Shown here: positions 9,023 to 25,822 of the stretch, one piece after another | Numbering within the stretch: the stretch's first letter is position 1 | How the letters are laid out: the number at the start of each line of letters is the position of its first letter | Source of the DNA: Bacillota bacterium | GTDB taxonomy: Bacteria > Bacillota > Negativicutes > Sporomusales > Sporomusaceae | DNA: 64,000 nt | Direction of reading: 5' to 3' | Assembly: GCA_017889705.1 (NCBI GenBank) | Contig: JAGGAB010000020.1 | Coordinates: forward strand, 62,001 to 126,000 | Position numbers and translations under genes: made by a program | The notes under the pieces: generated by a model | Told to the model about the DNA's origin: nothing | What the model saw: only the letters and a program-made list of their open reading frames with translations | Databases searched by the model: none

Positions 9023-9039
9023 AACGATACAAAAATATG

Positions 9040-9077: not shown

Positions 9078-9107
9078 TAGCATATGAGATTAGCGAGGTG
9101 GAGTAAG

Positions 9108-9452
9108 ATGAAAGGTAAGTCAAAACCTAATAAACCAGTTGAGTCATCTGATCTGGTAACTGTGCGGCGAACCTGGAACAGTTGGGAAACTGCCCAGGTT
9201 TATGTCGGTGATGTGTCCAATCCCCTCTGGGACATTGTTAGCGGTGGAGTAAAGGAGTCTGCTCCTGATGCGTTAATTTATGGGTATATATGGTGTGATA
9301 CCATTGTCTCCGGCAGTATTGCCCATTCGTGTTTACATGGTACTGCTCCCCACAGCATCAAGATCTGTATTCTGCGAAAAGACAACCCGCCACGCATTTT
9401 CAACCATTTCTTAGCGCTGGTGGGACCCAAACCGGCTTCATGGCAGCGCTAA
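9108..9452 (+). CDS. Hypothetical protein (114 aa)
   Basis: Not recognised. Start ATG 9108 follows GAGGTGGAG (9095-9103); an ATG at 9084 lacks one. Soluble protein without a signal peptide, basic N-terminus (KGKSKPNKP), then a Trp-rich central part (RRTWNSWETAQVYVGD, PLWDIVSGG) and a Cys/His-containing stretch (CDTIVSGSIAHSCLHGTAPH). It sits between a terminator and the convergent CPBP protease gene, so it has its own promoter or depends on read-through. Confidence 0.55.
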   Translation: MKGKSKPNKPVESSDLVTVRRTWNSWETAQVYVGDVSNPLWDIVSGGVKESAPDALIYGYIWCDTIVSGSIAHSCLHGTAPHSIKICILRKDNPPRIFNHFLALVGPKPASWQR

Positions 9453-9484
9453 TGGAGTGTTTTGCTGGAAAGTCCTTTTGCCGG

Positions 9485-10369: not shown

Positions 10370-10595
10370 AGTATTCTCCCGTCATATTAGTCTTAAAGGA
10401 CATTGCGTAACCATAACATAGTTTTAATGTTGACTTTTCTATTATTCGAGTAATTAGGTTAGGACTTTTTTGTAAAATGAAATACAATAATTGCTAAAGT
10501 ATAGAAGTTTAAAAGGTTTATGTTCACACTTGTAGAAAAAAATAATAGCTCATTTAACTATTTTACAATAAATTCAAAAGTTTGAGGAGTTTTAG

Positions 10596-12311
10596 ATGCC
10601 AAGAGTAGAAGTCTTTTTGCCGATAGATAATATAATTTTATATTTAGTTATTGCTGCTGTTTTTGAGGCACTAGCCGTATACCTCTTCCAGTTCCGACGA
10701 ATACCAGGGGCATTGCTGCTGGTTTATTGCCAAATAGCGAAAGGCTTTTGGGTACTGGCCAAACCCTTTGTCAGTTTACAGCCAGATCTGCCGGGAAAAC
10801 TGTTTTGGGTTAATTTTAACGAATGGACGCCCATTCTGCTTACCTATTTCTGGTTTGAATTTATTTTGCAGGTCAGCCAGCAAAAAAACAGGCTGATAAC
10901 GGTTATTCAGGTGTTGAGTCGGGCAACAGTGGTAAGCTTGCTGCTCATTATTAGTTTTGACAGTATGCTTGGCTGGTACTGGGGGCCAATGACCTTTGAC
11001 GGTCAGGTTTTATCGATTGTTGCCGGGCCGGCAGCCAAGGTAAACGCCATTTTTTGTTATGCCCTGAATTTGTTATCATTGGGGCTGTCGGTGCGCTGGG
11101 TATATTGCAGTAATGGCTTGCGGCGTCAACAGGCTGTGGCAGTGTCTGTAACTCCGGTATTCAACTTAATCGGTATTATATTAGGGTATACCTTTGAGCT
11201 TCAGGCCGTACCGCCACAGGTGCCTGGCCTACTATTATCCGCAATTTATGTAACAGGGGTTTTTTACTGGTGGCGGATTTACAGTATTCTGCCGTTGGCT
11301 CAGGAGGCTGTCACCCGTAACATGAATGACGGTCTGTTGGTTGTTGATAAAAAAAGCTATATTGTTGACCTGAATCCGGCAGCAAGTACAATCCTTGCCG
11401 GGATTGCGGTAACAATAGGCGACAAATTTTCCGCAATCATTGCCGCCTGGCCGGAATTGGCGGCAATGGGCGATAAGCCAACTTTGGAAGTCAGCAGAAT
11501 TTTTAATGGCTTGCAGCGTTTCTATCTAATCAGCACACTCCAGTGTAAAACACCACAGGGTCATGTCATCGGACAAACTTTTATATTCAAAGATATTACT
11601 GAGCAAAAACGCGATCATGCCAAGCTGATGGATCAACAAAAAGCCCTGTCTATCATGGCTGAGCGCGAACGTCTGGGGCGGGAACTGCATGATGGACAGG
11701 GTCAGTTATGGAGTTATATTAATGTTCAGGTGGAAGCAGCTCGTTCGCTGTTAGACAAAAAAGATTTTGTTCAGGCTGATTTGCTGCTGGAAAAAGTGGC
11801 TGGCGTGACCCAGGATGTTCATGTTGATCTCCGGGAATCCATAACCGGCCTGCAGCTTTCTGCCACTAAGGAAGGGATATGGCAGACCTTGGATGAGTAT
11901 CTGCAATGGTTTAAGCAAAATCATGGGATAGATACCGAATTGCTGCTAAGTGAGGAAGTTGTCGCCGGGCTGCTACCGCCGACCACCGAGGTGCAGTTGC
12001 TGCGAATTATCCAGGAGGCCTTAACCAATATTCGAAAATATGCCAAAGCCCAAAAGGCCAGGGTTGCCATCCTGGTTAAGGATGACAATATTGTCGAGAT
12101 CCAGGTGGAAGATGACGGCTGCGGTTTCGATCTTACCGCCGTAGCGGCGAAAAAAGGCAGTTTTGGTTTGAAAATTATGCAGGAACGGGCAGCGGAAATC
12201 GGGGCGCAGTATCAGATCTGCTCCAAACCCGGAACCGGTACCAAAGTCATTGTGCAAGTGACGATAGCTGAAGAATCGGCGGCAGACACAAGAAAGGACA
12301 TATCGCTATGA
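10596..12311 (+). CDS. Sensor histidine kinase, 7TM N-terminus, PAS, HisKA_3 (NarX/DegS type)
   Basis: 571 aa. Seven hydrophobic segments fill residues ~10-225 (the 7TM module of bacterial histidine kinases), followed by a PAS-like domain (~235-345), the HisKA_3 dimerisation domain with phospho-acceptor His365 in GRELHDGQGQ, and an HATPase (~455-560) with EALTNIRKYA and DDGCGFD. It overlaps the next gene by 4 bp (ATGA), forming a two-component pair. Preceded by GAGGAG at good distance. The signal is unknown; the membrane sensor suggests a small or membrane-soluble ligand. The target may be the downstream autotransporter (see 13134). Confidence 0.92.
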   Translation: MPRVEVFLPIDNIILYLVIAAVFEALAVYLFQFRRIPGALLLVYCQIAKGFWVLAKPFVSLQPDLPGKLFWVNFNEWTPILLTYFWFEFILQVSQQKNRLITVIQVLSRATVVSLLLIISFDSMLGWYWGPMTFDGQVLSIVAGPAAKVNAIFCYALNLLSLGLSVRWVYCSNGLRRQQAVAVSVTPVFNLIGIILGYTFELQAVPPQVPGLLLSAIYVTGVFYWWRIYSILPLAQEAVTRNMNDGLLVVDKKSYIVDLNPAASTILAGIAVTIGDKFSAIIAAWPELAAMGDKPTLEVSRIFNGLQRFYLISTLQCKTPQGHVIGQTFIFKDITEQKRDHAKLMDQQKALSIMAERERLGRELHDGQGQLWSYINVQVEAARSLLDKKDFVQADLLLEKVAGVTQDVHVDLRESITGLQLSATKEGIWQTLDEYLQWFKQNHGIDTELLLSEEVVAGLLPPTTEVQLLRIIQEALTNIRKYAKAQKARVAILVKDDNIVEIQVEDDGCGFDLTAVAAKKGSFGLKIMQERAAEIGAQYQICSKPGTGTKVIVQVTIAEESAADTRKDISL

Positions 12312-12961
12312 GAGTACTGTTAGTAGATGATCACGCCTTGTTTATGGACGGAATGAAAAATCTGTTGACTGCCAATGATATTGAAGTTATAGGAACAGCC
12401 ACAAATAGCCGGGAAGCGCTGGACAAAACCCAGGAATTGGCGCCTGATGTTATTTTGATGGATGTGCAGATGCCGGATGGTGACGGAATTACGGCTACAC
12501 GCCTGATCAAAGCCGATTTTCCTGAAACCAAAATCGTGATGCTGACAGTTTCGCAAGATGACAGTCACTTATTTGAAGCCATCAAAGCCGGTGCTTCCGG
12601 CTATCTGCTCAAAGGGCTGCCGAAAAAGCAGTTCCTGGAATTATTGGCAGGGTTAAATGACGGTCAGTCGCCGCTTTCGCCGGGCTTGGCCGCCAAAGTG
12701 TTGGCAGAATTCGCCAAACTGCAGCAGGAACGTGACCTGGCACAACAGGTTGCCAATAAGACCGCTTTGTTAACTTCTCGGCAAATTGACATTCTTAAGC
12801 TGGTAGCCCAGGGGCTAACCTACAAAGAAATTGGCGATCAAATGAATGTCAGCGAAGCCACAGTAAAATATCATATGGGCGAAATTACTGCCAGGCTGCA
12901 GCTCGAAAATCGCTCGCAAGTGATTGCCTTTGCATCAGAAGTAGGTCTGACTGCGGACTGA
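12308..12961 (+). CDS. NarL/LuxR-family response regulator
   Basis: 217 aa: receiver domain with Asp7/Asp8, phospho-acceptor Asp52 (VILMDVQMPDGDG), the T/S switch (MLTVSQDD) and Lys (LLKGLPKKQ); then LuxR-type helix-turn-helix (~150-212) with LTSRQIDILKLVAQGLTYKEIGDQMNVSEATVKYH split across its two helices. Translationally coupled to the kinase through an ATGA overlap. It is followed by 375 bp of non-coding DNA carrying the repeated CTATACTTT motifs, plausible binding sites for this regulator. Confidence 0.93.
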   Translation: MRVLLVDDHALFMDGMKNLLTANDIEVIGTATNSREALDKTQELAPDVILMDVQMPDGDGITATRLIKADFPETKIVMLTVSQDDSHLFEAIKAGASGYLLKGLPKKQFLELLAGLNDGQSPLSPGLAAKVLAEFAKLQQERDLAQQVANKTALLTSRQIDILKLVAQGLTYKEIGDQMNVSEATVKYHMGEITARLQLENRSQVIAFASEVGLTAD

Positions 12962-13096
12962 CCAACAGTGAAACAGCCAGCAAATGTCTAACGTACGGGT
13001 TTCTATGACCACGCCAACAGCAATTGACAGATTAGCTGCCACTTGCAGCAGTAACTTCCAATAGCAGGGATAAGAAAACTATATAAGTATCGATTG

Positions 13097-13129
13097 AAAA
13101 AAGTATAGGAAAACTATACTTTTTTTTTG
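13097..13129 (+). terminator. AT-rich hairpin with T-run after the two-component operon
   Basis: AAAAAAGTATAG (13097-13108), loop GAAAA, then CTATACTTTTTT (13114-13125) with the T-run continuing to 13128. It can act as an intrinsic terminator, but the stem is AT-rich and its arm CTATACTTT is also the core of the promoter motif at 13134 and 23214, so it may be an operator instead. Confidence 0.5.
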
Positions 13130-13133
13130 TTAG

Positions 13134-13190
13134 AAACTATACTTTCGTCTAGTGTGCTTTGGTAAGGATTCTGTTACGCTTTTAAGCAAA
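13134..13190 (+). promoter_or_regulatory. Promoter/operator module shared with the MFS gene at 23214
   Basis: Starts AAACTATACTTT, then TAGTGTG at offset 17 and TTCTG-n-TACG at offset 36-45. It aligns without a gap to 23214-23270. The direct half-sites CTATACTTT and CTAGTGTG, 12 bp apart, followed about 18 bp later by TACGCT, look like an activator box in front of a weak -10. The module lies about 150 bp before the autotransporter start. Confidence 0.5.
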
Positions 13191-13210
13191 GGATTGCATG
13201 TAATAAAAAA

Positions 13211-13304
13211 GTTGGTGAAATATTGAAATTGATGGAAGTCTGTTTTGCGGCGATTCCCTGTATCTGTCCATGCTAACGGTCAGATTAAAGCAGGAACAGC
13301 GGTA
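13211..13304 (+). pseudogene. Remnant of a duplicate of the small receiver-like gene (15408)
   Basis: The stretch aligns with the beginning of the gene at 15408 at DNA level (GTTGGTGAAATATTGAAATT against GCTGGTGAAACTTTGAAACA). After a one-base deletion near 13240 the frame reads FCGDSLYLSMLTVRLKQEQR, against FCGNSLYLCGLAASLQQKEQ in the intact gene, and then stops. The rest of the gene is missing. It lies directly in front of the autotransporter ATG, so the leader of that gene is made from a decayed paralogue. Confidence 0.6.
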
Positions 13305-13336
13305 AGAAGATGCTATAGAAAGAAGGTTGAATCATT

Positions 13337-15367
13337 ATGGCAAGACTCTTGCGGCGTTTCCGGCGGCGAACGACTGAAACGCTTTTGGCGGCGATGCTTG
13401 GGGCAACTGTATTGGCAGTAACGCCCTCAACTGCCCATGCTGATCTGGGGGCACAAGAATTTTACGACGGTGTTTCGCATATCATATCGGACAACATTAC
13501 CACAGGCAGCAACTACGCCTTACAGGTTTACAACCCCGGCACAAGCGCGTCCATGAACGGTTTTACGATAAGGAGTAGTGGCCCTGTCAGTGTAGGGGTG
13601 AATGGGTGGGGCGCCCTGCAACTCACTGACGTTATTATCTCTCACTCAGGCGATTATGCGCTTGTCAGTGATTTATCGGGCAGTGCCACGATGGAGGGTG
13701 GCAGTATTACCACCACCCGCGTGAATGCTACCAACGGAGTTTATCCGTCGGCCTGCGCTGTGCTCGCACAAAGAGGCGGCACAATAGAGCTGCGAGATGT
13801 AACTATCCAAGCTGCAGGAACTGCTCTCTACGCCGATTCATATGACCAACCCACTTCCGGTCCCACAATTACCGCCAGCGTCAATGGTCAGAACATCAGT
13901 GGCGGCACCGCGTTGCTGAACGCAGTGGGGAGCGGTAAGATCAACCTTACCGCCAGCAGTGGTAGCCGGCTTTATGGCATCGTGACTATATCAAACCCCG
14001 CCACCGCTGTTGCCAACCTTACTTTGAACAGCGGCGCGACCTGGACAAATCCAGGCAATTCCATCCTTAGCAACCTCACTTTGAACAATGGCATAGTCAC
14101 CTTCGCCGCGCCGTCTGCCGGCAGCTACAAAACCATCACCATCAACGGCAACCTGACCGGCAGCGGCGGCGTATTCAATCTGAACGCCAACCTTGGCGCC
14201 GGGCTGGCCGACCTTATCACCATCAACGGAAATACGAGCGGCGTCTATCAACTGAGCATCAATAACCAAGGCACCGCCGCAGCAGCGCGTAGTGCGGTAA
14301 AAGTCGTGCAATTAAACCCAGGCGCGACCAATACTGCCAGTTTTAGTGGCAGCGATATCGGCGCCTACCGCTACGGCGTAGCCCAAGGCTCGACCCTTGG
14401 CGGTTATAGTGGCGTTAACAGTGCCGCCGATTATTACCTGTATAATGCCGGCAAGCCATCCAACGTTTCGCAAAGCGCAGTCGCCAGCAGCGCCGGCAGC
14501 GTAATCGCTTGGTACGGCGAAATGAATGAAATCCGCAAGCGGATGGGTGAATTGCGCCTGGGCCGACAGTCAAGCGACGACTTTTGGAGCCGGACCTATG
14601 CGACTAAGTTTAACGTCAAACCGGCCGGTGCCGAATCATACACTCAGATTACACACGGCATCGAACTGGGTAAAGATAATCCGCAAGCGTTTATCGGCGG
14701 CAAAAAAATCACCGGCTTTCTCGTCGGCTACGGCAAAGGTGACAGCAGCTTAACCAGCGGCGGCAGCGACACCACTGATAGCACCTATCTAGGCGCGTAT
14801 AGCAGCTGGGTGCGTGACGACGGCAGCTATTTTGACCTGATCGGCAAGTACAACTGGTTTAACCACAAATATGCCGCACCGGTTCTCGGCGGCGGCAGTG
14901 ACAGCGGCAGCTATCGCAACCAGGGTCTTGGATTGTCGGCGGAAATCGGCAAGCACATTGCACGCGAGGACGGCTTCTTCATTGAACCGGCGCTTGAACT
15001 GTCGACGCTGTGGTCAAGCAGCGCGTCTTATACCAGCGCAAATGGCCTTGCCGTTACCGTGCCGTCAGCCCATTCCCTTCAACTGCGTCTTGGCTGCACT
15101 GTCGGAAAAACCTGGCAGGGAAAGAGCGGCGCAGCCCGCCAACTCTACGGCAAATTATCCTGGGTCAATGAATATGCTGGCAACAGCAGTGTGCGTGTCG
15201 ATACAGCCTCGTTCGATGCCAGTCTGAAAGGGCACCAATGGGTAGCCGGTGTCGGTTTCGTGGAAGACAGCAAAAATCATCAGCTGTACCTTGATGCGGA
15301 AAAATCCTGGGGCAACTCTATCAGCAAAGTCTGGGGCGTCAATGCTGGCTATCGCTGGAAGTTGTAA
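13337..15367 (+). CDS. Type V autotransporter with pertactin-like passenger and beta-barrel
   Basis: 676 aa. Basic signal peptide with predicted cleavage after Ala35 (STAHA). Residues ~36-380 form a repetitive Gly/Ser/Thr/Asn-rich beta-helix passenger of the pertactin type (repeats such as NLTLNSGATW, NLTLNNGIVTF). A linker helix (~395-420, AWYGEMNEIRKRMGELR) precedes the autotransporter beta-barrel (~425-676) with alternating aromatic strands, ending YRWKL. The protein needs an outer membrane, so the host is a diderm. G+C and codon use look higher than the neighbours in the passenger region. ATG follows AAGAAGG. Passenger function unknown, probably adhesion. Confidence 0.9.
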   Translation: MARLLRRFRRRTTETLLAAMLGATVLAVTPSTAHADLGAQEFYDGVSHIISDNITTGSNYALQVYNPGTSASMNGFTIRSSGPVSVGVNGWGALQLTDVIISHSGDYALVSDLSGSATMEGGSITTTRVNATNGVYPSACAVLAQRGGTIELRDVTIQAAGTALYADSYDQPTSGPTITASVNGQNISGGTALLNAVGSGKINLTASSGSRLYGIVTISNPATAVANLTLNSGATWTNPGNSILSNLTLNNGIVTFAAPSAGSYKTITINGNLTGSGGVFNLNANLGAGLADLITINGNTSGVYQLSINNQGTAAAARSAVKVVQLNPGATNTASFSGSDIGAYRYGVAQGSTLGGYSGVNSAADYYLYNAGKPSNVSQSAVASSAGSVIAWYGEMNEIRKRMGELRLGRQSSDDFWSRTYATKFNVKPAGAESYTQITHGIELGKDNPQAFIGGKKITGFLVGYGKGDSSLTSGGSDTTDSTYLGAYSSWVRDDGSYFDLIGKYNWFNHKYAAPVLGGGSDSGSYRNQGLGLSAEIGKHIAREDGFFIEPALELSTLWSSSASYTSANGLAVTVPSAHSLQLRLGCTVGKTWQGKSGAARQLYGKLSWVNEYAGNSSVRVDTASFDASLKGHQWVAGVGFVEDSKNHQLYLDAEKSWGNSISKVWGVNAGYRWKL

Positions 15368-15407
15368 TGGTAAATGGTTGCTTTGCATTGAGGAAGCTGG
15401 TGAAACT

Positions 15408-15752
15408 TTGAAACAGGTGGAAGTAGTGTTCTGCGGCAATTCGTTATATCTCTGCGGTTTGGCTGCAAGCCTGCAGCAAAAAGAACAATTTCGTATCTGC
15501 TGGATGGAGTATGAACCGATGAATGCTCTTCCTGAGCTAAAAATGCTTTGTCCTGATGTGTTGGTGATGGAAGCAGCCAACTACAATGCGAAAATGGCCA
15601 GTAGTTTGCGTAAAAAAAGTGATCCGGTAATTATCGTAGTGTATCCTGAAACCGATTCGCTGGAAGTGTTTTGGGAGAACCGGCGTTATACAACGGCAAT
15701 TGATAGTTTGATAAGCGTAATTACAGATGTCACTGCCGGTAACCAAGCGTAA
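15408..15752 (+). CDS. Small receiver-like protein (114 aa), paralogue of remnant at 13211
   Basis: Start taken as TTG 15408, after GAGGAAG (15390-15396); a GTG at 15417 is possible. The product has the strand/helix rhythm of a response-regulator receiver: VEVVFCG, an LAASLQQ helix, PDVLVMEAAN, PVIIVVYP. The phospho-acceptor position is Glu in VLVME and no DNA-binding domain follows, so it would be a degenerate, non-phosphorylated receiver. Encoded 40 bp after the autotransporter and probably co-transcribed. Function unknown; a regulator of the autotransporter is only a guess. Confidence 0.6.
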   Translation: MKQVEVVFCGNSLYLCGLAASLQQKEQFRICWMEYEPMNALPELKMLCPDVLVMEAANYNAKMASSLRKKSDPVIIVVYPETDSLEVFWENRRYTTAIDSLISVITDVTAGNQA

Positions 15753-15781
15753 ATAATAACTAAACAACGACAGGAAAAAGC

Positions 15782-15828
15782 AACAGCCTTGCATTACGCC
15801 AAAAGAATATGGCAGATGCAAGGCTGTT
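15782..15828. terminator. Bidirectional terminator
   Basis: AACAGCCTTGCAT (15782-15794) pairs perfectly with ATGCAAGGCTGTT (15816-15828). Lies between the convergent 114-aa gene and bioA. Confidence 0.8.
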
Positions 15829-15830
15829 TG

Positions 15831-17171
15831 TTATCCTAAAATCTCATTAATACATTCTCGGCATACTTGGATGATCGCAGGCATATCAGCACGCTTAATG
15901 GTCAGCGGCGGGTTAAAATAGAGAACATCGCCAAGCGGCCTGAGCACTACGCCTTTGGCTAACGTCTTTTTATAAATCTGATAACCGATACGTTTACCGG
16001 AGTCAAAAGGCTGCTTACTCGATTTGTCAGCAACCAGTTCGATGGCATTAATCAGGCCAATTGACCGGATTTCACCAACATGCGGGTGATCAGCCAGTGA
16101 GTCTAGTAGCAGTTGGTGGAAGTAAGGTGCATTTTCGTTGGCCTTTTCTAAGATTTGCTCTTCCTTTAAAATGGCCAGCACTTCATTAGCTGCCGAGCAG
16201 GCCAGTGGGTTGCCGCTGTAGGTGTGGCTGTGGAGAAAGGCTTTGCCTTCGCCGTAGTCGGCATAAAACGCGTCATAAATGGTTTGGGTGGTTACTGCCA
16301 GTGCCATCGGCAAATAGCCGCCAGTCAGGCCTTTGGACAGACAGATGATATCTGGTGAGATGCCGGCATGGTCACAGGCGAACAGCTTGCCTGTGCGGCC
16401 AAAGCCTGTGGCGATTTCATCGGCTATTAGGTGAACCTTGTATTTGTCGCAGGCTTCGCGGAGTTTTTTGAGATACAGCGGCGGATATATTCGCATCCCG
16501 GCCGCTCCTTGGACAAGCGGTTCGGCGATAAAGGCGCAGACTGTGTCAGCATGCTCGGCAAAAGCCGCTTCTGCATCGGCGAAACATTGCGCCTGGCAGC
16601 TGTCGCGATGTTGATTATAACGACAGCGGTAGCAGTCCGGTCCGTCAACCCGGATAATATCAAGCAGCATGGGTTTATAGATTTGGGAATACAAATCCAC
16701 GCCGCCGACAGAAAGGGCGCCAACAGTTTCGCCATGATACGCGTCACTTAAGGCCATAAACCGTGTTTTCTGCGGCTGGCCTGTCTGATAATGATACTGA
16801 AAACTCATTTTCATGGCAGCTTCAATAGCAGAAGAGCCGTTATCGGTGAATAAGAACTTGGTCAGACCTTTTGGCAGCAGGCGGGAAAGACTGTCACAGA
16901 GATTAATGGCCGGGGCGTGAGAGAAGTTTGCGAAGATGACATGTTCTAGTTTGTCAATTTGGTTTTTGACAGCATTGTTTATGCGGGGATTGCAATGACC
17001 GAGCAGATTGCACCACCAGGAACTCACTACGTCGGCATACTTTTTGCCGTCAACATCGTAAAGGTATAAGCCTTTTGCATGGTCGATTATAATAGGCGGC
17101 AACTCTTCATAGTCCTTCATCTGGGAACAGGGATGCCAGATATGCTGTAAATCTTTTTGTACTAAATCCAT
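15831..17171 (-). CDS. bioA: Adenosylmethionine-8-amino-7-oxononanoate aminotransferase BioA
   Basis: 446 aa class III PLP aminotransferase. It converts 7-keto-8-aminopelargonate to 7,8-diaminopelargonate in biotin synthesis. Recognisable segments: IWHPCSQMKDYEELPP at the N-terminus, SSWWCNLLGHCNPRI, DNGSSAIEAAMKMSFQYH, DAYHGETVGALSVGG, LIADEIATGFGRTG, and the PLP lysine in LSKGLTGGYLPMALA. Last gene of bioB-bioD-bioA, starting 3 bp after bioD ends. Full length. Confidence 0.96.
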   Translation of the reverse strand: MDLVQKDLQHIWHPCSQMKDYEELPPIIIDHAKGLYLYDVDGKKYADVVSSWWCNLLGHCNPRINNAVKNQIDKLEHVIFANFSHAPAINLCDSLSRLLPKGLTKFLFTDNGSSAIEAAMKMSFQYHYQTGQPQKTRFMALSDAYHGETVGALSVGGVDLYSQIYKPMLLDIIRVDGPDCYRCRYNQHRDSCQAQCFADAEAAFAEHADTVCAFIAEPLVQGAAGMRIYPPLYLKKLREACDKYKVHLIADEIATGFGRTGKLFACDHAGISPDIICLSKGLTGGYLPMALAVTTQTIYDAFYADYGEGKAFLHSHTYSGNPLACSAANEVLAILKEEQILEKANENAPYFHQLLLDSLADHPHVGEIRSIGLINAIELVADKSSKQPFDSGKRIGYQIYKKTLAKGVVLRPLGDVLYFNPPLTIKRADMPAIIQVCRECINEILG

Positions 17172-17174
17172 AGC

Positions 17175-17861
17175 TTAGACCTCCTTGAACAGCTGGCAAA
17201 GTGCAGATGTATCGATATCCAGACAGCTTGCGTGCTCAGGAACGCAGGCGATGACTGGCACTTTGGTTAAGCGTTCAATCATATTTCGGTTATCTATATG
17301 TAAAAAATGAGTATTATCATAGTTGTTAAGAATGAACCCTTTTACTGTAATCCCCAGGCTTGCGGCATAATGTGCGGTAAGAACTGCGTTGTTAATGGAG
17401 CCAAGTCCGGCTGAAGATACCACAAGCAAGTCAAGGCCGAGCAACTTGATAATGTCGGTTTGCATCAGGATGGTGTCATCCATGCGTAACGGACAGACAA
17501 GGCCGCCGCAGCCTTCTACTGTAAGAAAATCATATTGGTGCGAAAATTTATTGAAGTCAGCCTGGATAACGCGCGCCTCTATTGGCTGGTGCTCTAGCTG
17601 GGAGGCCAGATGCGGCGAAACCGCAGTTTTATATATGTAAGAGGTTAACTCTTGCGGTGCTAGCGGGATACCGGCAATATCGGCGACAAACTTGCAGTCG
17701 CCGGGAATGAGGTTGCCGGCAATCTCTTCTGCGCCGCTTAACGCCGGTTTATAGTAACCGGCGTTAAGGCCGCTGCTGCGGAGTTTTTTTACAAGTAGAC
17801 CGCTCACATAGGTTTTGCCAATATCAGTTCCTGTTCCGGTGATAAAGATCGCTTTACTCAT
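17175..17861 (-). CDS. bioD: ATP-dependent dethiobiotin synthetase BioD
   Basis: About 228 aa from the ATG at 17861, which follows GAGGCG; an upstream in-frame start would lie inside bioB without a better ribosome site. P-loop FITGTGTDIGKTYVS near the N-terminus, VEGCGGLVCPL, and VSSAGLGSINNAVLT are diagnostic. It closes the ureido ring of dethiobiotin from diaminopelargonate, CO2 and ATP. Overlaps the end of bioB by 8 bp, so translation is coupled. Confidence 0.95.
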   Translation of the reverse strand: MSKAIFITGTGTDIGKTYVSGLLVKKLRSSGLNAGYYKPALSGAEEIAGNLIPGDCKFVADIAGIPLAPQELTSYIYKTAVSPHLASQLEHQPIEARVIQADFNKFSHQYDFLTVEGCGGLVCPLRMDDTILMQTDIIKLLGLDLLVVSSAGLGSINNAVLTAHYAASLGITVKGFILNNYDNTHFLHIDNRNMIERLTKVPVIACVPEHASCLDIDTSALCQLFKEV

Positions 17862-18819
17862 GTAGTTTCGCCTCGAATCCAAGAGAGTTCAGCATTGCTA
17901 AATCATCACTAATACTGATGCCGGCAGTTGTCAGCATGTCGCCGGAGATGGCAGCGTTGGCGCCTGACTGAAATACGGCTCTGCCCTTATCAGGCAATAA
18001 ACCTCGTCCGCCAGCCAACCGGATGGCAGCTGTCGGCAAGATAAAACGGTATATGGCGACAATGCGCCGCACTTCCTCAGCTGTGAGTTTAGGCAGGCCG
18101 GCAAGTGGTGTTCCTGGTATTGGGTTTAATATATTAACAGGAATGGATTTTATGCCAAGCTCGCGCAGGTCAAGAGCCATGTCAATCCGGTCTTCCAGAG
18201 TCTCACCAAGTCCCATAATGCCGCCGCTGCAAACTTCCAGGCCGGCTGCTAAGGCATTTTTGATTGTGGTAATTTTGTCGTCATAGGTATGGGTGGTACA
18301 GATTTGCGGGAAATAGCGGCGGGATGTTTCAAGATTGTTATGATAGCGCGAAACGCCGGCTGCTTTAAGCTCTCTAAACTGCTCCAACGACAATAAGCCG
18401 TGCGAAGCGCACAGCGAGATAGTGCAGTTATTCCGCAAGGTGCGGTAATGCTCGCAGATTTGCGTCAATTCGTCATCAGACAGTGTCCGACCGGAAGTAA
18501 CAATCGAATAGCGGTGAACGCCTTTATTTTGGTTATAAAGAGCTTCTTTGAGGAGACTCTCTTCATCCATCAGTGGATATTCTTCAACGTCAGTGTTGTA
18601 ATGAACCGATTGAGCGCAGTACTTACAGTTTTCCGAGCAGCGTCCGCTTTTGCCGTTAACAATAGTACAGAGATCAAAAGCATTGCCGCGGAAATGCTGG
18701 CGCAACTCATCGGCGGCTGAACAAAGTTCTGCCAGCGGTGCGTCATACAGTGTCAACGCTTCCTGCTTGGTCACCTGATGGCCGTTAAGCACAGCAGAGT
18801 ATAATTGTTGTAGGTTCAT
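17854..18819 (-). CDS. bioB: Biotin synthase BioB (radical SAM)
   Basis: 321 aa. Radical-SAM cysteines Cys61, Cys65 and Cys68 in GRCSENCKYCAQS; further family segments YHNNLETSRRYFP, CSGGIMGLGET and NPIPGTPL, which hold residues for the 2Fe-2S sulfur donor and substrate. It inserts sulfur into dethiobiotin. First gene of the operon; the promoter and two BirA-type operators lie 100-250 bp upstream. bioF, bioC and bioH functions are not in the window. Confidence 0.96.
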   Translation of the reverse strand: MNLQQLYSAVLNGHQVTKQEALTLYDAPLAELCSAADELRQHFRGNAFDLCTIVNGKSGRCSENCKYCAQSVHYNTDVEEYPLMDEESLLKEALYNQNKGVHRYSIVTSGRTLSDDELTQICEHYRTLRNNCTISLCASHGLLSLEQFRELKAAGVSRYHNNLETSRRYFPQICTTHTYDDKITTIKNALAAGLEVCSGGIMGLGETLEDRIDMALDLRELGIKSIPVNILNPIPGTPLAGLPKLTAEEVRRIVAIYRFILPTAAIRLAGGRGLLPDKGRAVFQSGANAAISGDMLTTAGISISDDLAMLNSLGFEAKLHE

Positions 18820-18918
18820 TAATATATCAGACTCCTTTTGTAAGATCTTATGTAAGCGCTTCCAGTCGATGGTTGGTAAAGTTTGCGAGTAACCGAGAGT
18901 GGGTTATTAGTAAAAAAA

Positions 18919-18951
18919 CTGTAAACCAAAAACGATTGCAAAGGTTAACAA
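18919..18951. promoter_or_regulatory. Second BirA-type operator, bioB leader
   Basis: CTGTAAACC (18919-18927), 15-nt spacer, GGTTAACAA (18943-18951). The known Firmicutes BirA consensus is TTGTTAACC-N14-16-GGTTAACAA; the right half is perfect and the left half has two mismatches. It lies about 70 bp downstream of the bioB -10, where binding would block elongation or a second promoter. Confidence 0.65.
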
Positions 18952-19014
18952 TTGAAACGCAATTTACCCTAAAGCTGCACAATTTTTTATTAAAGTAAAT
19001 CTGCGTATAGGTTT

Positions 19015-19067
19015 ATTATACTGCTTGGACCTATATTGTCAACTAATAACAAAACAATGGTTAACAT
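19015..19067 (-). promoter_or_regulatory. bioBDA promoter with overlapping BirA operator
   Basis: On the minus strand, consensus -35 TTGACA (19037-19042) and consensus -10 TATAAT (19015-19020), 16 bp apart. A BirA-type operator covers the -35: TTGTCAACT (19036-19044), 14-nt spacer, GGTTAACAT (19059-19067). Holo-BirA binding would exclude polymerase when biotin is sufficient. The perfect hexamers mean the operon should be strong when derepressed. Confidence 0.85.
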
Positions 19068-19100
19068 TACGACTAAGAATCTGGATTGTTTACTCCGGCC

Positions 19101-19502
19101 TCAAAAGCCATGACTGTCACCTCGCAATTTATCTACAAATGGTAAATCAGCCGGGGCAAAATCGTAATCACTAAGACATGCAATATCAACCCATTCAATA
19201 GTATCATGGGAATTAAGTTCAATTTCGCCTGATAACCAAGTACACCAATAAGCTTTAAGTTGAATAGTCCTATTCGGGTACTCATAGATACTTTCCCCGA
19301 AAAAGTCACTGACACTTATCTCGATGTTTACTTCCTCTTTTATTTCACGACGGAGGCATTCTTCTGGGGTTTCGCCAACTTCAACTTTGCCACCGGGGAA
19401 TTCCCATTTGCCGGCTAATTTATCTCCGATCGGTCGACGGGCAATTAGGATTGTACCTTTATCCTGAATAACAGCTGCAATTACTTCAATCAAATTCGTC
19501 AC
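19101..19502 (-). CDS. MutT-type NUDIX hydrolase (8-oxo-dGTP diphosphatase family)
   Basis: 133 aa with the NUDIX box GKVEVGETPEECLRREIKEE (residues ~37-56), followed by VNIEI where the usual glycine of the box is Asn. N-terminus VIAAVIQDKGTILIARRP is typical of MutT, which hydrolyses oxidised nucleoside triphosphates. ATG 19502 follows AAGAGGTGA. Single gene; its 3' end is 34 bp from the BirA operator of the bio operon. Confidence 0.88.
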   Translation of the reverse strand: MTNLIEVIAAVIQDKGTILIARRPIGDKLAGKWEFPGGKVEVGETPEECLRREIKEEVNIEISVSDFFGESIYEYPNRTIQLKAYWCTWLSGEIELNSHDTIEWVDIACLSDYDFAPADLPFVDKLRGDSHGF

Positions 19503-19651
19503 CTCTTTTACCTGGGGTTTACTGACCTTTCATCACCTGGGTTCTGAAAATAACCAAAATTAAATACTTCCCAATAACAACCAAAAAAGGACTTTTTCTA
19601 AAAAATAAAGGGAATTTATGGATCAATAGGGAAATATATAAAAGGCAATAG

Positions 19652-19697
19652 GGACGTTGCCGACGGGTTACTGAAAAGTAATCTTTCGGCAACGTCC
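19652..19697. repeat. Long isolated hairpin between mutT and the chemoreceptor gene
   Basis: GGACGTTGCCGA (19652-19663) and TCGGCAACGTCC (19686-19697) pair perfectly, with an inner TTACT-GAAA-AGTAA stem. No T-run follows on the plus strand; on the minus strand only a weak T-rich stretch. It sits about 50 bp before the chemoreceptor start. Could be a terminator, a palindromic repeat or a leader structure. Confidence 0.5.
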
Positions 19698-19750
19698 TAT
19701 CGTCATTCATTTGAGGAATACAAGAAACCAAAAATTAAGGTGGGATCAGA

Positions 19751-21769
19751 GTGCAGTTGCTAAAGATGATGAAGAAAAGTATTCAGGTAAAGGTCACGGT
19801 AATAGCTGTTGTTAGTCTGTTTATATCATTAAGTATTTTGGGTATTTGCAATTTTTATAATGCAAGAAATATAATCATTGCTGATGCGGAAGAAGCACTT
19901 GCTGAGCAGGCTGAGGCCAATGCCCGGGAAATTGCATTATGGAATGAGATGCGTAAAGGCGAGCTTTCCATATTGGCTACAAATCAAAGTGTTGTGAATG
20001 GTGATACTGAGGTTGCACTTAACTATTTGGCTTCAGAGGCCAAACGTAATCCCATTTATTCGCGGTTCTGGGTCGTAAATGCGCAGGGGCAGGCTATTCA
20101 TACCACCAGAGACAGAACCAATATTGTTGATCGCGACTACTTTAAGCAGGTAATGTCTACAGGAGAAGTGGTAGTTACTGATCCGATTATCTCAAAAGTA
20201 GACGGAAAAATGGTAGTCTCAGTGGTTGCTCCCATTAAAAGAGATAATAGAATTGTTGGGGTTTTAGGTGGCACAGTTACGGTGGATAGCCTGATTGCCC
20301 GTATCAATGAGATTAAAGTGGCGCAAACTGGATATGCCTATGTAATACAAGGCAATGGTTTAACCATTTTTCACCCTGATAAGGAGCGTGTTATGAAAAA
20401 CAATGCGCTGACCGATCAGGATGCTGATAGTAAGTTAAAAGAAATAACCAACAAGATGGTAAGCGGTGAAAAAGGCATTGCCAGTTATGTTGAGAATGGA
20501 GCTACAAAGTATATCGCTTATTCACCGATTGGCGGGTCGCATTGGAGCTTAGGTATTAACGTTCCGGAAAATGAAATTCTTACTAAAACCAAGGCGTTCA
20601 CAATTACTTCGATTAGTCTCATCGCCTTAATTCTTATTGTTACTTGCGGGTTTGGTATTGTTGCTTCCAGACGGTTGACAAAGCCAATTGTTACCTTAAA
20701 CAAAACAGTAGAGAAAGTTGCCCAAGGTGATTTAACCATACAAACAGCAGGGCTGGTTCAGCATAAGAGCAGCAAGGCTGACAAGGATGAACTTGATACG
20801 TTGGCTGCCAACTTTAATATGATGGTAGTAAATTTAAACAATCTGGTGCAGCAAATCTCGGTTTCGGCAGAACAAGTGGCCGTATCTTCAGAGGAGTTGA
20901 CTGCCAGTGCTGAACAATCTGCGCAGTCGATAACTCAGGTTGCCGGTTCGGTTGGTGATATTGTGGGTGGAACAGAAAGCGCATTGCAGGCGGTTGATGA
21001 AGCGTCAGCAGTAGTAGAGCAAATGTCTGCAGGTATACAGCAGGCTGCCGCTAGCTCTAACCAGGTAGCCGCACATTCTGCACAAGCGGCCGATAAGGCC
21101 AAAGAAGGCAATGCTTCGGTTGTCAAAGCTGTTACGCAAATGACCCAGGTTGAACAGACTGTCAATAACTCGGCACAAGTTGTGGCTAAACTTGGTGAGC
21201 GCTCCAAGGAAATCGGACAGATTGTTGATGCGATATCCGGTATTGCCGGGCAAACCAACTTACTGGCACTTAATGCTGCAATTGAAGCAGCACGAGCGGG
21301 GGAACAAGGAAGAGGGTTTGCGGTTGTTGCTGAAGAGGTCCGTAAATTGGCTGAACAATCCCAAGATGCAGCTAAGCAAATCGCAACTCTGATTGGCGAA
21401 ATCCAGGGGGATACAGATAAAGCTGTTGCAGCCATGGATGAAGGTACGCGTGAAGTCAAGATCGGAGCTGAAGTGGTTACTGTTGCCGGAAAAGCCTTTG
21501 AAGAAATCGCCTCATTGGTAACCAGTGTATCTGAACAGGTTAGAGAGATTTCTGCTGTTATGCAGCAATTGGCAAGTGGCAGTCAGCAAATCGTTCTTTC
21601 GGTTAGAACAATAGATAGCATCAGCAAAAATACGGCTGAAGATGCGCAAACCGTGTCAGCCGCCGCTGAAGGGCAGTCAGCATCTATGGAGGAAATTGCT
21701 GCTTCCAGCCAAAGTCTGGCCAAGATGGCAGAAGCGCTTCAGCAAGTGATCTGCAAGTTTAAAATCTAA
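19751..21769 (+). CDS. Methyl-accepting chemotaxis protein with dCache sensor
   Basis: 672 aa starting at GTG 19751 after AAGGTGGG. Order: TM1 (~12-35), extracytoplasmic dCache domain (~40-270; [40 protein letters not shown]), TM2 (~280-303), HAMP (~305-365), methylation helices and signalling tip with the conserved [20 protein letters not shown] hairpin (~505). It senses small ligands such as amino or organic acids outside the membrane and controls CheA. Single gene, ended by the hairpin at 21798. Ligand unknown. Confidence 0.95.
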
Positions 21770-21797
21770 TATAAGCGAAGAAAAACAGCTGCTGTTG

Positions 21798-21854
21798 AAC
21801 TGACCCCCAAAAGTTAGACCTTAAAAATCCAACTTTTGGGAGGTCAGTTTTTTT
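21798..21854 (+). terminator. Terminator of the chemoreceptor gene, resembling IS3-family ends
   Basis: AACTGACCCCCAAAAGTT (21798-21815) pairs with AACTTTTGGGAGGTCAGTT (21831-21849), then seven Ts. The arm TGAACTGACCCCCAAAAGTT closely resembles terminal inverted repeats of many IS3-family elements, so the terminator may be a fused pair of IS ends. Confidence 0.75.
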
Positions 21855-21947
21855 GTCTACCGGAATTTATAACAAAATGCTGTTGATATAAAGACGCCTG
21901 AGGCTTCTTTGTCACAAGCCAAGTCTTTTCTTATAGAGACAAATAGC

Positions 21948-22079
21948 TTATTTGTTTGGTATCAGCGGTTTGTTTTGTGTGTTCGTTTCTTTTGCACTAT
22001 CACGGTTAGAATTGTATTTCGGATCGCCAAAGGTAACTTTTTTTGAACTTTCTTTAATGGCTTGTTTGATTAGTGAAAT
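21948..22079 (-). CDS. Small protein (about 43 aa), unusual start codon
   Basis: Not recognised. On the minus strand GGGAGGTGATTACC precedes ATT TCA CTA ATC; either ATT at 22079 starts it, with ideal spacing from GGAGG, or an in-frame GTG at 22088 inside the ribosome site. Product: ISLIKQAIKESSKKVTFGDP followed by a Lys/Asn/Ser-rich tail ending PLIPNK. The first ~14 residues would form a basic amphipathic helix. It lies 117 bp after the 66-aa gene on the same strand. Confidence 0.45.
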   Translation of the reverse strand: MSLIKQAIKESSKKVTFGDPKYNSNRDSAKETNTQNKPLIPNK

Positions 22080-22195
22080 GGTAATCACCTCCCGGAGATA
22101 GTTTGTCCATAAAAAATAGGTGAGACTCGGGATTGTTGGAGATTTTCAACAAAAATAAGAGCGAAGATAATGTGCGCTATAGCAACACTATGAAT

Positions 22196-22396
22196 TTAAG
22201 AATTCTCTAGTTTGGCGACACGCTGCTCTAGTTCACTAATTCGCGCAAGTAAAGCTTGCTCTGCGTTTATATTCTCAATTTCGTTTTTGCGATCACAGTC
22301 TTGGGATAATAATTCGGCAACTAAGGCAAGCGCATCTCCCAGAACGGTAAAGATCAATGCTAGAAGGATTAATTTATCTATGTCGTCACAGTTCAT
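22196..22396 (-). CDS. Small membrane/coiled-coil protein (66 aa)
   Basis: Function unknown. ATG 22396 follows TAGGAG at 8-9 bp. N-terminal hydrophobic helix (residues ~8-30, LILLALIFTVLGDALALVAELL) followed by a heptad-like helix to the end (ARISELEQRVAKLENS). The layout suggests a membrane-anchored coiled coil. Probably co-transcribed with the 43-aa gene downstream. Confidence 0.7.
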   Translation of the reverse strand: MNCDDIDKLILLALIFTVLGDALALVAELLSQDCDRKNEIENINAEQALLARISELEQRVAKLENS

Positions 22397-22481
22397 GGTT
22401 GCCAGCTCCTAGATAGTTTATTAAGCATTTTATGCTAGAGCAGCTGCGCTGGTTCAAAACAGGGAGCAGTAAGATATAAAA

Positions 22482-22505
22482 AAACCTGCAAACAAATGCA
22501 GGTTT
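22482..22505 (-). terminator. Terminator of the 172-aa secreted protein gene
   Basis: AAACCTGCA (22482-22490) and TGCAGGTTT (22497-22505); on the minus strand the stem is followed by a run of Ts. Confidence 0.8.
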
Positions 22506-22579
22506 ATAATCGAAAAATATATATTGCTACAGGTGAGTTAAATTCTCTGCCGCCTTGGCGATAAGTAATTTGTAGAGGT

Positions 22580-23098
22580 TTAAGAATTGTTGCTAACTGC
22601 ATTAAAAATGTCAGTTAGGATTGAAAAAGGGGTTCGTTTAGGATTATGCATTCTTTTGTCATAATCAAGCTGCAAACGCGCATTGTTGGTCTGCGCATAT
22701 TTTAAAACAGCACTATAACAGGCTTCCGGAACTGTTTCAGGCAGGACAGGTGCCCAAAAACTAGGATTATACTGAGTGGAGGTTTTGCCAATGACTTGTC
22801 CGCTACCGTTATAGTCAGCTGTATCCATGAGCAGCATTTGACGCTCGTTTAGGCGGAACCAATAGTGTTTTAAAGTAGAGTCATAACTGAACTCAGAAGT
22901 GCTTTTTATCCAGACGCTTACCAGCTTTTCATCACGATAGGGATCTTTTTCATAGCGTAATGTAGTTGTATCAAACTGAGCTACCACTGCATCATCGGTT
23001 ACAATGTTCTCATAGCGGGAAGCTGCTGCCAGTCCAATTGCAGAAGAACAAGCAAACACTAACAAGGTAATAAACAGTATGTATTTTGCATATCTCAT
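22580..23098 (-). CDS. Secreted hypothetical protein (172 aa)
   Basis: Start at 23098, giving a standard signal peptide MRYAKYILFITLLVFACSSA, with cleavage around residue 22-25; an upstream in-frame start would bury it. The mature part contains segments such as VSVWIKSTSEFSYDST and YWFRLNERQMLLMDTADYN, seen in surface-associated small proteins of Negativicutes that respond to stress. Two-thirds beta-rich, no catalytic motif visible. Divergent from the MFS gene at 23303. Confidence 0.7.
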   Translation of the reverse strand: MRYAKYILFITLLVFACSSAIGLAAASRYENIVTDDAVVAQFDTTTLRYEKDPYRDEKLVSVWIKSTSEFSYDSTLKHYWFRLNERQMLLMDTADYNGSGQVIGKTSTQYNPSFWAPVLPETVPEACYSAVLKYAQTNNARLQLDYDKRMHNPKRTPFSILTDIFNAVSNNS

Positions 23099-23213
23099 AG
23101 TTTCATCTTCTTTCTGGCATGCCCGGCAAGCCAAGTATTTAGTGCAAGACAAAAATGTCTTTCATTTATTTATTTCTTCATAAGGTAAATAAAACCCTGT
23201 TTATTTATAGGTA

Positions 23214-23270
23214 AAACTATACTTTAGGATAGTGTGTTTTTTAGTAAATTCTGGTACGATATATGCAAAA
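23214..23270 (+). promoter_or_regulatory. Promoter/operator module of the MFS gene
   Basis: AAACTATACTTT, TAGTGTG and TTCTGGTACGAT occur at the same spacing as in 13134-13190, aligned without gaps. TACGAT is a possible -10 about 18 bp after TAGTGTG. A transcript from here would begin roughly 35 bp before the MFS start codon. Confidence 0.5.
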
Positions 23271-23302
23271 GTAAAAAAAGGTAAAATTAAGGAGGTGTGA
23301 GG

Positions 23303-24637
23303 ATGGCAAGTGTGCATTTTACTGAGGAACGCGAGAAGGCGCTTATGTGTAAAATCCGTTGGAAGATTGTTCCGTATGTTATGCTGCTGTATATTGTGGC
23401 GATGCTGGACCGGGTTAATATCGGATTTGCTGCTTTGCAGATGAATAAGGAGCTAGGAATTAGCGCCAGTATGTTTGGGTTGCTGGCGGGTATTTTCTTT
23501 ATTTCCTATTTCTTTTTTGAAGTTCCCAGCAATATTATTATGTATAAGGTGGGAGCGCGTAAGTGGATTGCCAGGATTCTTGTAAGCTGGGGACTGGTGA
23601 CGGTTTTGCTGGCGTTTGCACAAAATGTTATGCAGGTGGCAGTTTTGCGGGCGCTTTTGGGTGCTGCGGAAGCCGGTTTTTATCCTTGCATTATTTTATA
23701 TTTTACGTTTTGGTTTCCCAGCAGGCATTTTGCCAAAACTATGTCGCTGTTTATGTGCGGGATGGCGTTGGCCAATATTATTGTTGGGCCGATTTCATCA
23801 TGGATTATGGAAAATGTTGCGTGGCTGGGGCTATCTGGCTGGCGCTGGATGTTTATATTAGAAGGTTTGCCGGCAATACTTCTGGGGTTTGTTACGTTGT
23901 TTGTCATGGTGGACAGGCCGCAGCAGGCTCAATTTCTGAGTACGGAAGAAAAAGAGTGGCTTATTGACAAATTGGAGCGTGAACATGCCGCCAAAGCAGT
24001 AAAGGTCAAAGTTACAAATAAATGGGAGGTTTTTAAAAGCGGCCGCGTATGGCATTTGGCGTGTTGTTATTTGTGTTATACTTTTATGCTCTACGGTCTC
24101 GGAATGTGGATGCCGCAAATAGTAAAAAACCTTGCCCAAGCAATGAGTTTATCTAACATCGGGATAATTTCAACAGTTCCTTATGTGTGTGCCATTAGTG
24201 TTATGATTTACGTGGCTAAACGATCTGATGCTGTCCAGGAACGCCGGTATCATACGGCTATACCAATGGGAATCGGCTTTGTGGGCTTAATGAGTTTACC
24301 CTTAACAGAGGATCTTATCTTGTCGATGGTGCTGCTCTGTATCTGTCAGGCTGCAATTTATGCTTTTGTCGGAACGTTCTGGACGTTGCCTAATTTGTAT
24401 TTATCAGAAGTGAATGCGGCTATTGGCATTGCTATCATTAATTCGTTTGGCAATTTAGGCGGTTTTTTTGGACCCTATATGGTCGGCTTTCTGAAAGATA
24501 TTACCGGTTCAACTAATGCCGGTATGGTGTTCTTAGCTTCGTTTGCATTAGTGGGAACTGCTCTTATAGTAGCTATTCCTAAAAAGGAAGCCGCCCCCGA
24601 ATCGTTAAAAACCAATGTAAGCGTACAGCAGATTTGA
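23303..24637 (+). CDS. MFS transporter, anion:cation symporter (ACS) family
   Basis: About 444 aa. ATG 23303 follows AAGGAGGTGTGAGG. Twelve membrane helices; MLLYIVAMLDRVNIGFAAL in helix 1 and GAAEAGFYPCIILYFTFWFP in helix 4 are signatures of the ACS family (phthalate, tartrate, glucarate and hexuronate permeases). Probably an organic-anion/H+ symporter of the inner membrane. No catabolic gene is adjacent, so the substrate stays open. Its promoter module matches that of the autotransporter. Confidence 0.9.
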   Translation: MASVHFTEEREKALMCKIRWKIVPYVMLLYIVAMLDRVNIGFAALQMNKELGISASMFGLLAGIFFISYFFFEVPSNIIMYKVGARKWIARILVSWGLVTVLLAFAQNVMQVAVLRALLGAAEAGFYPCIILYFTFWFPSRHFAKTMSLFMCGMALANIIVGPISSWIMENVAWLGLSGWRWMFILEGLPAILLGFVTLFVMVDRPQQAQFLSTEEKEWLIDKLEREHAAKAVKVKVTNKWEVFKSGRVWHLACCYLCYTFMLYGLGMWMPQIVKNLAQAMSLSNIGIISTVPYVCAISVMIYVAKRSDAVQERRYHTAIPMGIGFVGLMSLPLTEDLILSMVLLCICQAAIYAFVGTFWTLPNLYLSEVNAAIGIAIINSFGNLGGFFGPYMVGFLKDITGSTNAGMVFLASFALVGTALIVAIPKKEAAPESLKTNVSVQQI

Positions 24638-24724
24638 TTCCAGTGGCGTTAAAACACCATACATAGAAGGATACCCTATAAAGATGGAGAATTTATTCAT
24701 AACTGATATTAGGGGGAATATGAT

Positions 24725-25822
24725 ATGTACACACGCAGGCTGTTAGTTGCATTGATAATGGTTTTGTCACTTGTGGTTGCCGGTTGTTCCGGGGAAAAAG
24801 ATGTCAAAACACCGGCTACCGGAAGTCTGATGGTGGGAATGCTGACTGATGCTGGTACCATTGATGACAGGTCATTTAATCAGGGAACCTGGGAAGGTAT
24901 TGTTAAGGCGGGAACGGATTTTAATTTTAAGCCTAAATATCTGCGCCCGGCCGGCACGACGACTGCTGATTATGATAAAGAAATCGCCAACCTTCATGAT
25001 GCGGGTTATAGGCTGATTATTACCCCAGGATTTAAGTTTGAGAATTCGATTTATACGGCGCAGGATAAGTATCAGGATACCAAATTTGTCATTTTGGATG
25101 GAGTTCCACATCCGGGCAATGATTATAGCAAAGTCAAGGTTGGTTCCAATACGGTAGCTATAAACTTTGCCGAGCATGAATCTGGGTTTCTGGCAGGTGT
25201 TGCGGCAGCGCTGCAGCTTAAGAGCGGTGAATTTGGATTTATCGGCGGCATGGAGATTCCTGCTGTGCAGCGGTTTAACTGGGGCTTTCAACAAGGAATA
25301 AAATATGCCAATGCCAATTTGGGCACTCAGATTACAATAAAAGCTGAAAACTTTTTGTATCAGGGAACTTTTCATGATGTTGCGGCAGGGCAGCAGCTGG
25401 CTGCACAGATGTATGACCGGGGCGTTAAGGTCATATTTGCTGCTGCCGGCAGTGTCGGTATTGGCGTAATTAATGAGGCCGTGGCCCGGACAAAGGGCGG
25501 TCAGGCTGTATGGGTAATCGGTGTTGACGTAGATCAATATGCACAGGGCTATTATGATGCCAACAAGACCAAGTCGGTTATTTTGACATCGGCAATGAAG
25601 TGTGTGAACCAGGCGGCCTATGATATGGTCAAAAGTGTAAAAGAGGGTAATTTCCCAGGCGGCAAAACACTTACTTTTAATGTGAAAAATGATGGTATTG
25701 GTATTCCTGCTCAGAACCCGAATCTTCAGGCTGAAGTTACCGGCAAGATAACAGAACTGGTTGCCAGTCTAAAAGAAGGAAAAATAACTGTTGCCGATAA
25801 GGGGGAGGGCCTGCTGCGATAG
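24725..25822 (+). CDS. BMP-family (Med/PnrA-like) ABC substrate-binding lipoprotein
   Basis: 365 aa. Lipoprotein signal with lipobox VAGC, Cys21. Domain begins at LMVGMLTDAGTIDDRSFNQGTWEG and includes HESGFLAGVAAAL and FIGGMEIPAVQRFNWGFQQG, hallmarks of the BMP family that binds nucleosides (PnrA, NupN). It delivers substrate to the ABC transporter encoded next. A terminator-like hairpin separates it from the ATPase gene, a way to make more binding protein than transporter. Confidence 0.92.
   Translation: MYTRRLLVALIMVLSLVVAGCSGEKDVKTPATGSLMVGMLTDAGTIDDRSFNQGTWEGIVKAGTDFNFKPKYLRPAGTTTADYDKEIANLHDAGYRLIITPGFKFENSIYTAQDKYQDTKFVILDGVPHPGNDYSKVKVGSNTVAINFAEHESGFLAGVAAALQLKSGEFGFIGGMEIPAVQRFNWGFQQGIKYANANLGTQITIKAENFLYQGTFHDVAAGQQLAAQMYDRGVKVIFAAAGSVGIGVINEAVARTKGGQAVWVIGVDVDQYAQGYYDANKTKSVILTSAMKCVNQAAYDMVKSVKEGNFPGGKTLTFNVKNDGIGIPAQNPNLQAEVTGKITELVASLKEGKITVADKGEGLLR

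Follow-up and report, generated by a model that had tools for sequence, protein, structure and literature searches.

Why do an autotransporter adhesin gene and a transporter gene of a Sporomusaceae bacterium carry the same short sequence upstream, and which regulator might read it? The question arises from a window of 64,000 nucleotides (the whole stretch of DNA analysed here; contig JAGGAB010000020.1, positions 62,001–126,000), in which the sequence at 13134 (AAACTATACTTTCGTCTAGTGTGCTTTGGTAAGGATTCTGTTACGCT), ahead of the adhesin gene, aligns without gaps to that at 23214 (AAACTATACTTTAGGATAGTGTGTTTTTTAGTAAATTCTGGTACGAT), ahead of the transporter gene, with the common blocks equally spaced on direct reading. 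We found that this shared module consists of an 18-bp dyad, ideally ACTATAC-N4-GTATAGT, and an extended −10 element (TGnTAnnnT) whose distance from the dyad is exactly the same in both copies. Judging from sequence comparisons, it probably serves as operator and promoter for a regulon under direct activation by the response regulator whose gene starts at 12308 and by that regulator's close relatives.

A dyad in fixed register with an extended −10 element

The putative operators are the proximal dyads at 13136–13153 (ACTATACTTTCGTCTAGT) and 23216–23233 (ACTATACTTTAGGATAGT), both on the plus strand. On the same strand and at the same distance 3′ of each dyad lies the extended −10 element, TG-T-TACGCT at 13172–13180 and TG-G-TACGAT at 23252–23260. 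The initial annotation had described a 57-bp module, recognised by three shared words, as common to these two genes; the sharing stood, but the unit is a dyad plus an extended −10 rather than merely three words, and it is not unique to the pair. The ideal dyad is itself intact at two other places in the genome (C32:41975 and C50:34114).

Because the −10 hexamer starts at dyad position 40, the dyad is centred near −42.5. This fixed register places it where a class II activator would sit, overlapping or replacing the −35 element. Neither promoter has a good −35, and no consensus −35/−10 pair was found on the plus strand; the arrangement of TGn-TAnnnT at a fixed distance, without a good −35 hexamer, is that of a class II activated sigma-70 promoter. 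Among the aligned modules the conserved columns are the dyad and the −10 only, the spacer between them having diverged, and the TG, TA and T of the extended −10 are invariant across 22 modules, an invariance that is partly selected because some modules were found with a pattern already containing the −10. We also weighed a promoter specific to a particular sigma factor and did not retain this reading, since what is conserved upstream is a dyad and the −10 has the ordinary extended form. An Rfam search of positions 9000–25000 returned no match.

Recurrence of the module in the genome and in the class

The string CTATACTTTNNNNTAGTGTG has three exact copies in the 5.0-Mb genome, the two in the window and one at C32:2797, before a second autotransporter gene. 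The composite pattern of dyad and extended −10 has four perfect copies in this genome and none in the reversed control, and a search of 380 genomes of the class allowing up to two mismatches recovered 20 module sites versus 2 control sites. All 15 near-perfect copies (at most one mismatch) among those genomes are confined to 8 of them. Recurrence of the module is therefore far above chance.

Searching with the dyad alone also yielded sites before a fabH-type gene (C113:26160), a cheY-like gene (C32:41992) and a chemotaxis receptor gene (C50:34114). In all, this genome has about seven copies of the module. At the six strongest sites TAnnnT preceded by TG begins at dyad position 40 or 41, even though the −10 was not part of the query. 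The genome-wide search that the initial annotation had proposed as a check thus did not produce the many hits devoid of promoter context that would have spoken against it: at all six an extended −10 follows, its register constant to within one base. With a 46-position profile the seven best places in the genome were those six sites and C145:60176, the transporter promoter at 23216 ranking first (E 4.4e-8), a ranking that is descriptive because the profile was built with several of the same sites. The independent evidence for the module lies in the dyad-only search and the control counts; weak profile matches in other genomes (E > 0.02) were not used.

The module accompanies a NarL-type response regulator

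Upstream of the adhesin gene, on the same strand, lies a two-component system (10596–12961). The first gene (10596–12311) encodes a 571-residue sensor histidine kinase with HisKA_7TM, PAS_4, HisKA_3 and HATPase_c domains, all above Pfam gathering cut-offs; its nearest NCBIfam models, NarQ and NarX, fall far below cut-off. The overlapping second gene (12308–12961) encodes our proposed activator, a 217-residue NarL/VraR-type response regulator assigned from Pfam, orthologues and alignment. Its receiver domain (Response_reg, 100.6 bits) and GerE helix-turn-helix domain (61.8 bits) both exceed Pfam cut-offs, as in NarL/FixJ-type regulators, which are likewise paired with HisKA_3 kinases. The closest solved full-length relatives by sequence are VraR (E 6e-37) and NarL (E 7e-30); the protein does not reach the NCBIfam cut-off for the nitrate regulator NarL (143 vs 250 bits), nor those of other named equivalogs. 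Its recognition helix is SEATVKYHMGEI. Orthologues in relatives are 49–78% identical, and other NarL-type regulators of the same genome are 44–48% identical. Upstream of the kinase gene no module-type site was found.

In relatives the module often stands directly 3′ of the regulator gene. We quantified this adjacency with a matrix trained solely on four sites of the window's own genome, scanning the 420 bp that follow each regulator gene on its 3′ side. Of the 13 regulators with 50% identity or more, among them that of the window, 8 have a site there that scores above the 99.9% shuffle level, against none of the 17 less similar paralogues, the best of which (G014) has a recognisable site (score 12.4) together with a TIKYH helix. 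One genome, G068, encodes two copies of the regulator, each with sites 3′ of its gene. Among the 13 regulator-positive genomes, 7 contain a module with no more than one mismatch, versus 1 of the 367 others (Fisher p 6e-11 over the 380 genomes, a value that is optimistic because the species are related and not independent). The recognition helix is mostly TV[KR]YH where the module adjoins the regulator gene, and mostly TVKNH or TVKHH in the 44–48% paralogue clade, which lacks modules. Adjacency in relatives, co-occurrence and the match of recognition helices all argue for the link to the two-component system made in the initial annotation, and its picture of a common regulon is likewise supported as far as sequence can speak, as is an activator site overlapping the −35.

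Several observations weigh against this link, beyond the relatedness of the species and the partial selection of the −10 noted above. Some copies of the regulator have no adjacent site (G062, one of the two in G027, G042 and C56 of G008), and G035 has a strong module and just a 47% identical relative of the regulator. In addition, the genome encodes several NarL/LuxR-type proteins, any of which could bind if it had a TVKYH-like helix. Separately, a relative of the regulator with 51% identity (L064; G023:C1:3892873-3893502) contains one in-frame TAA and is possibly a decayed copy.

Phased half-sites and the hairpin before the adhesin promoter

Upstream of the proximal dyad at 13136, the plus strand carries two further half-sites: GTATAG at 13103–13108, a right half standing 44 bp ahead of the corresponding half of the proximal dyad, and CTATAC at 13114–13119, a left half 23 bp ahead of its counterpart there. 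They also form the left and right arms, respectively, of an inverted repeat at 13097–13125 (AAAAAAGTATAG-GAAAA-CTATACTTTTTT, followed by a T tract) that has similar hairpins in relatives. As originally described, the core CTATACTTT and its complement make up both arms. RNA folding of 13092–13134 gave −12.7 kcal/mol (z −5.8).

Among 29 promoters, CTATAC occurs 17–23 bp upstream of the dyad in 18 (shuffles: mean 1.0, maximum 5), with a peak at −21/−22, and GTATAG occurs 30–36 bp upstream in 16 (shuffles: mean 1.5, maximum 6), with a peak at −33. About 60% of module copies thus carry extra half-sites some 22 and 44 bp upstream, which, from their sequence and spacing, are the left and right halves of putative dimer sites shifted by those distances. 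In G007 and G068 the distal element amounts to an almost complete dyad. It follows from this phasing that the hairpin at 13097–13125 is the right half of the distal site beside the left half of the middle site.

The hairpin may also terminate the kinase/regulator transcript, and we retain both roles. The stable stem and T tract could even mean that it is mainly a terminator of that operon and that its likeness to the operator is incidental, a reading that we regard as possible and hold to be the less probable one. Similar hairpins in relatives mostly stand behind co-directional genes, and the hairpin is absent at promoters with divergent upstream genes (23216 and C113), as a terminator would be. 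Its arms, however, are nearly always the operator half-site and change with the operator (GTACAG/CTGTAC in G008; GTATAA/TTATAC in G052), its position is phased to the dyad, and the C113 and C32a promoters retain a single upstream half-site without any hairpin. The drifted half-site of G008, CTGTAC/GTACAG, is found not only in its hairpin but also in dyads at other places of that genome, including one that precedes an autotransporter gene.

This drift from CTATAC to CTGTAC, seen at several sites of G008 (L090, L270 and L271), is a possible case of co-evolution between regulator and operator. Two other loci (L104, 4500–6100; L109, 1900–5250) have long inverted repeats with compensatory differences between the regulator gene and the next promoter (for example AAGTATAGTTAAACACTA/TAGTGTTTAACTATACTT), which are terminator-like and contain many operator half-sites.

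Predicted targets

The target at 13337–15367 (plus strand) encodes, by Pfam and NCBIfam, an autotransporter adhesin with a Pertactin-like/AC_1 passenger end and an Autotransporter beta-barrel. The target at 23297–24637 (plus strand; likely start ATG 23303, preceded by AAGGAGG) encodes a major facilitator superfamily (MFS) transporter (Pfam MFS_1) of the anion:cation symporter (ACS) type, similar to HpaX and D-galactonate transporters; TIGR02332 and TIGR00893 match strongly yet below their curated cut-offs. By module position, the other targets in this genome would be the second autotransporter, the cheY-like gene, the chemotaxis receptor gene and the fabH-type gene.

In relatives the module precedes a variety of surface systems. 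In G009 it lies before an inverse autotransporter of the intimin type, with a second module before the gene upstream of that autotransporter, and in G027 before a gene for a 1419-residue protein whose end reads as autotransporter-like. Two-partner secretion genes of the ShlB/FhaC type follow it in G008 (by Pfam) and in G020 and G013 (by sequence likeness), Poly_export (Wza-like) operons in G068 and G064, and a GH114-led operon with an epimerase-like gene in G035. The common theme of these predicted targets is attachment and matrix.

Adhesins are indeed the main predicted targets, type V secretion genes following the module in the window, C32, G009, G027, G008, G020 and G013. The initial annotation had envisaged a regulon of an adhesin and an organic-anion importer, of which the adhesin part is supported. 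The importer is a candidate member, tied in only by the transporter's own strong site, and in no relative was a module found before an ACS-type MFS gene. As a whole that regulon was drawn too narrowly: relatives would add exopolysaccharide operons to it, and the window's own genome would add genes for chemotaxis and of the fabH type.

Proposed mechanism and competing explanations

Under direct activation by the regulator of 12308, the membrane kinase of 10596, whose domains suggest sensing through a seven-transmembrane (7TM) input domain and a PAS domain, would phosphorylate the regulator upon a signal. A dimer of the regulator would then bind the proximal dyad ACTATAC-N4-GTATAGT, which occupies the place of the −35, and at about 60% of promoters one or two half-sites, set back by some 22 and 44 bp on the same face of the DNA, would take up further dimers. 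These phased dimers would help, presumably cooperatively, to recruit RNA polymerase to the extended −10. Going by gene context, activation would switch on surface-attachment genes: in this window the autotransporter gene at 13337, in relatives the genes for type V adhesins and for exopolysaccharide export. The MFS gene at 23297, the cheY-like gene, the chemotaxis receptor gene and the fabH-type gene would be further targets in the genome studied here.

The dyad could instead be bound by another GerE-type or dyad-binding activator (a NarL/LuxR paralogue or a CRP/FNR-like protein), its apparent link to the two-component system arising because adhesin and regulator genes travel together. Candidates exist in the NarL-type regulators of 44–48% identity, one module-like site adjoins a MalT/LuxR-type gene (C92), and several families of activators bind 16–18-bp dyads near −42. 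We nevertheless consider this explanation unlikely, because the sites track the regulator even where the next surface genes differ (classical, two-partner or exopolysaccharide), because both regulator copies of G068 have sites 3′ of their genes, and because co-occurrence and the recognition-helix match point to regulators of the 12308 type. That a mobile or repetitive element has spread the modules, as several near-identical copies in one genome might suggest, seems very improbable: conservation is limited to the dyad and −10 columns while the spacer diverges, the copies hold their orientation and distance to the next gene, operators diverge in step within one genome, and the copies share no flanking identity outside the module.

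The C92 site (L054, ~7490–7507) is a near-perfect dyad, AATATACTTTCGTATAGT, directly behind the MalT-like LuxR-type gene, with TATGAT at position 41 and no TG.

Comparison with known systems

ComA, a NarL-family regulator of Bacillus subtilis, has a canonical site of two inverted hexamers separated by a 4-nt spacer (PMC4797271). CTATAC-N4-GTATAG has the same 6-4-6 geometry and also has putative extra recognition elements nearby; it differs in its hexamer (CTATAC rather than the TTGCGG of ComA), in that the extra elements of ComA form a direct repeat with a 5-nt spacer downstream of the dyad, and in that ComA serves a quorum response. At the fha promoter of Bordetella, BvgA dimers are spaced at 22 bp, centre to centre, along one face of the DNA, and the promoter-proximal one abuts the −35 (PMC7250471). 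BvgA too is a NarL-family regulator of type V adhesins, and the 29 promoters described here share its ~22-bp phasing with the proximal site at the −35; the heptad sequence of BvgA differs, and at Pfha the strong inverted site is distal, whereas here the strong dyad is proximal. The kinases also differ, that of the window being of the short 7TM HisKA_3 type and BvgS a large hybrid kinase, and nothing pointed to a common descent of the BvgA regulon and this one. Because the half-sites are unlike those of both ComA and BvgA, we propose that the module works like these systems and claim it as neither.

The lux box of LuxR-type regulators is a dyad of the CT-N12-AG type; its centre lies near −42.5, and it contacts the −35 region. 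The module shares this dyad type and position and differs in its half-site, and its proposed regulator has a receiver rather than an autoinducer-binding domain. The operators of VraR and NarL, the closest relatives of known structure, differ in sequence from the operator here, and the regulator lies below the NCBIfam cut-off for NarL. A literature search found no description of this regulon.

A probable pseudo-receiver and a possible wider circuit

The adhesin gene is followed on the same strand by one for a small receiver-like protein (15408–15752; 114 residues, TTG start), identified by alignment, AlphaFold2 (AF2) prediction and Foldseek. Members of its family, of ~105–130 residues, come after the module or the adhesin gene both in the window and in six relatives (G052, G009, G020, G027, G008 and G042), where they neighbour the regulator or adhesin gene. 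The protein has no Pfam or NCBIfam family; its AF2 model (predicted local distance difference test, pLDDT, 89) bears a weak likeness to receiver domains (E about 1e-3, template modelling score, TM, about 0.55). In the family C-G stands in place of the receiver acidic pair, and an invariant Glu (E55) apparently occupies the phospho-acceptor position; from these two changes, seen against the predicted fold, the protein is probably a pseudo-receiver.

Our findings point to an undescribed surface-attachment control circuit in outer-membrane-bearing Firmicutes, in which a single regulator family is linked to surface systems that vary from species to species. The host's gene content suggests that it is itself a diderm Firmicute of the Negativicutes kind. 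More speculatively, the circuit may be class-wide among diderm Firmicutes, a pair of 7TM kinase and NarL-type regulator activating whichever surface system is present, be it exopolysaccharide or a type V adhesin of the classical, inverse or two-partner kind. The pair would act through an operator array phased at 22 bp that doubles as the terminator of the upstream gene, and a co-transcribed pseudo-receiver, with Glu at the phospho-Asp position and the acidic pair lost, would tune the kinase or the regulator. With operator, regulator and target list defined, the question is directly testable.

Apart from the module, the genome contains a strand-biased repeat around AAGAAAG[CT]TATACTTTCTGTTAGGGTAA, with ~17 copies of the core. 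It corresponds to no Rfam family, and in the four copies that we read (L015, L016, L019 and L027, near position 1500) it stands just before terminator-like hairpins.

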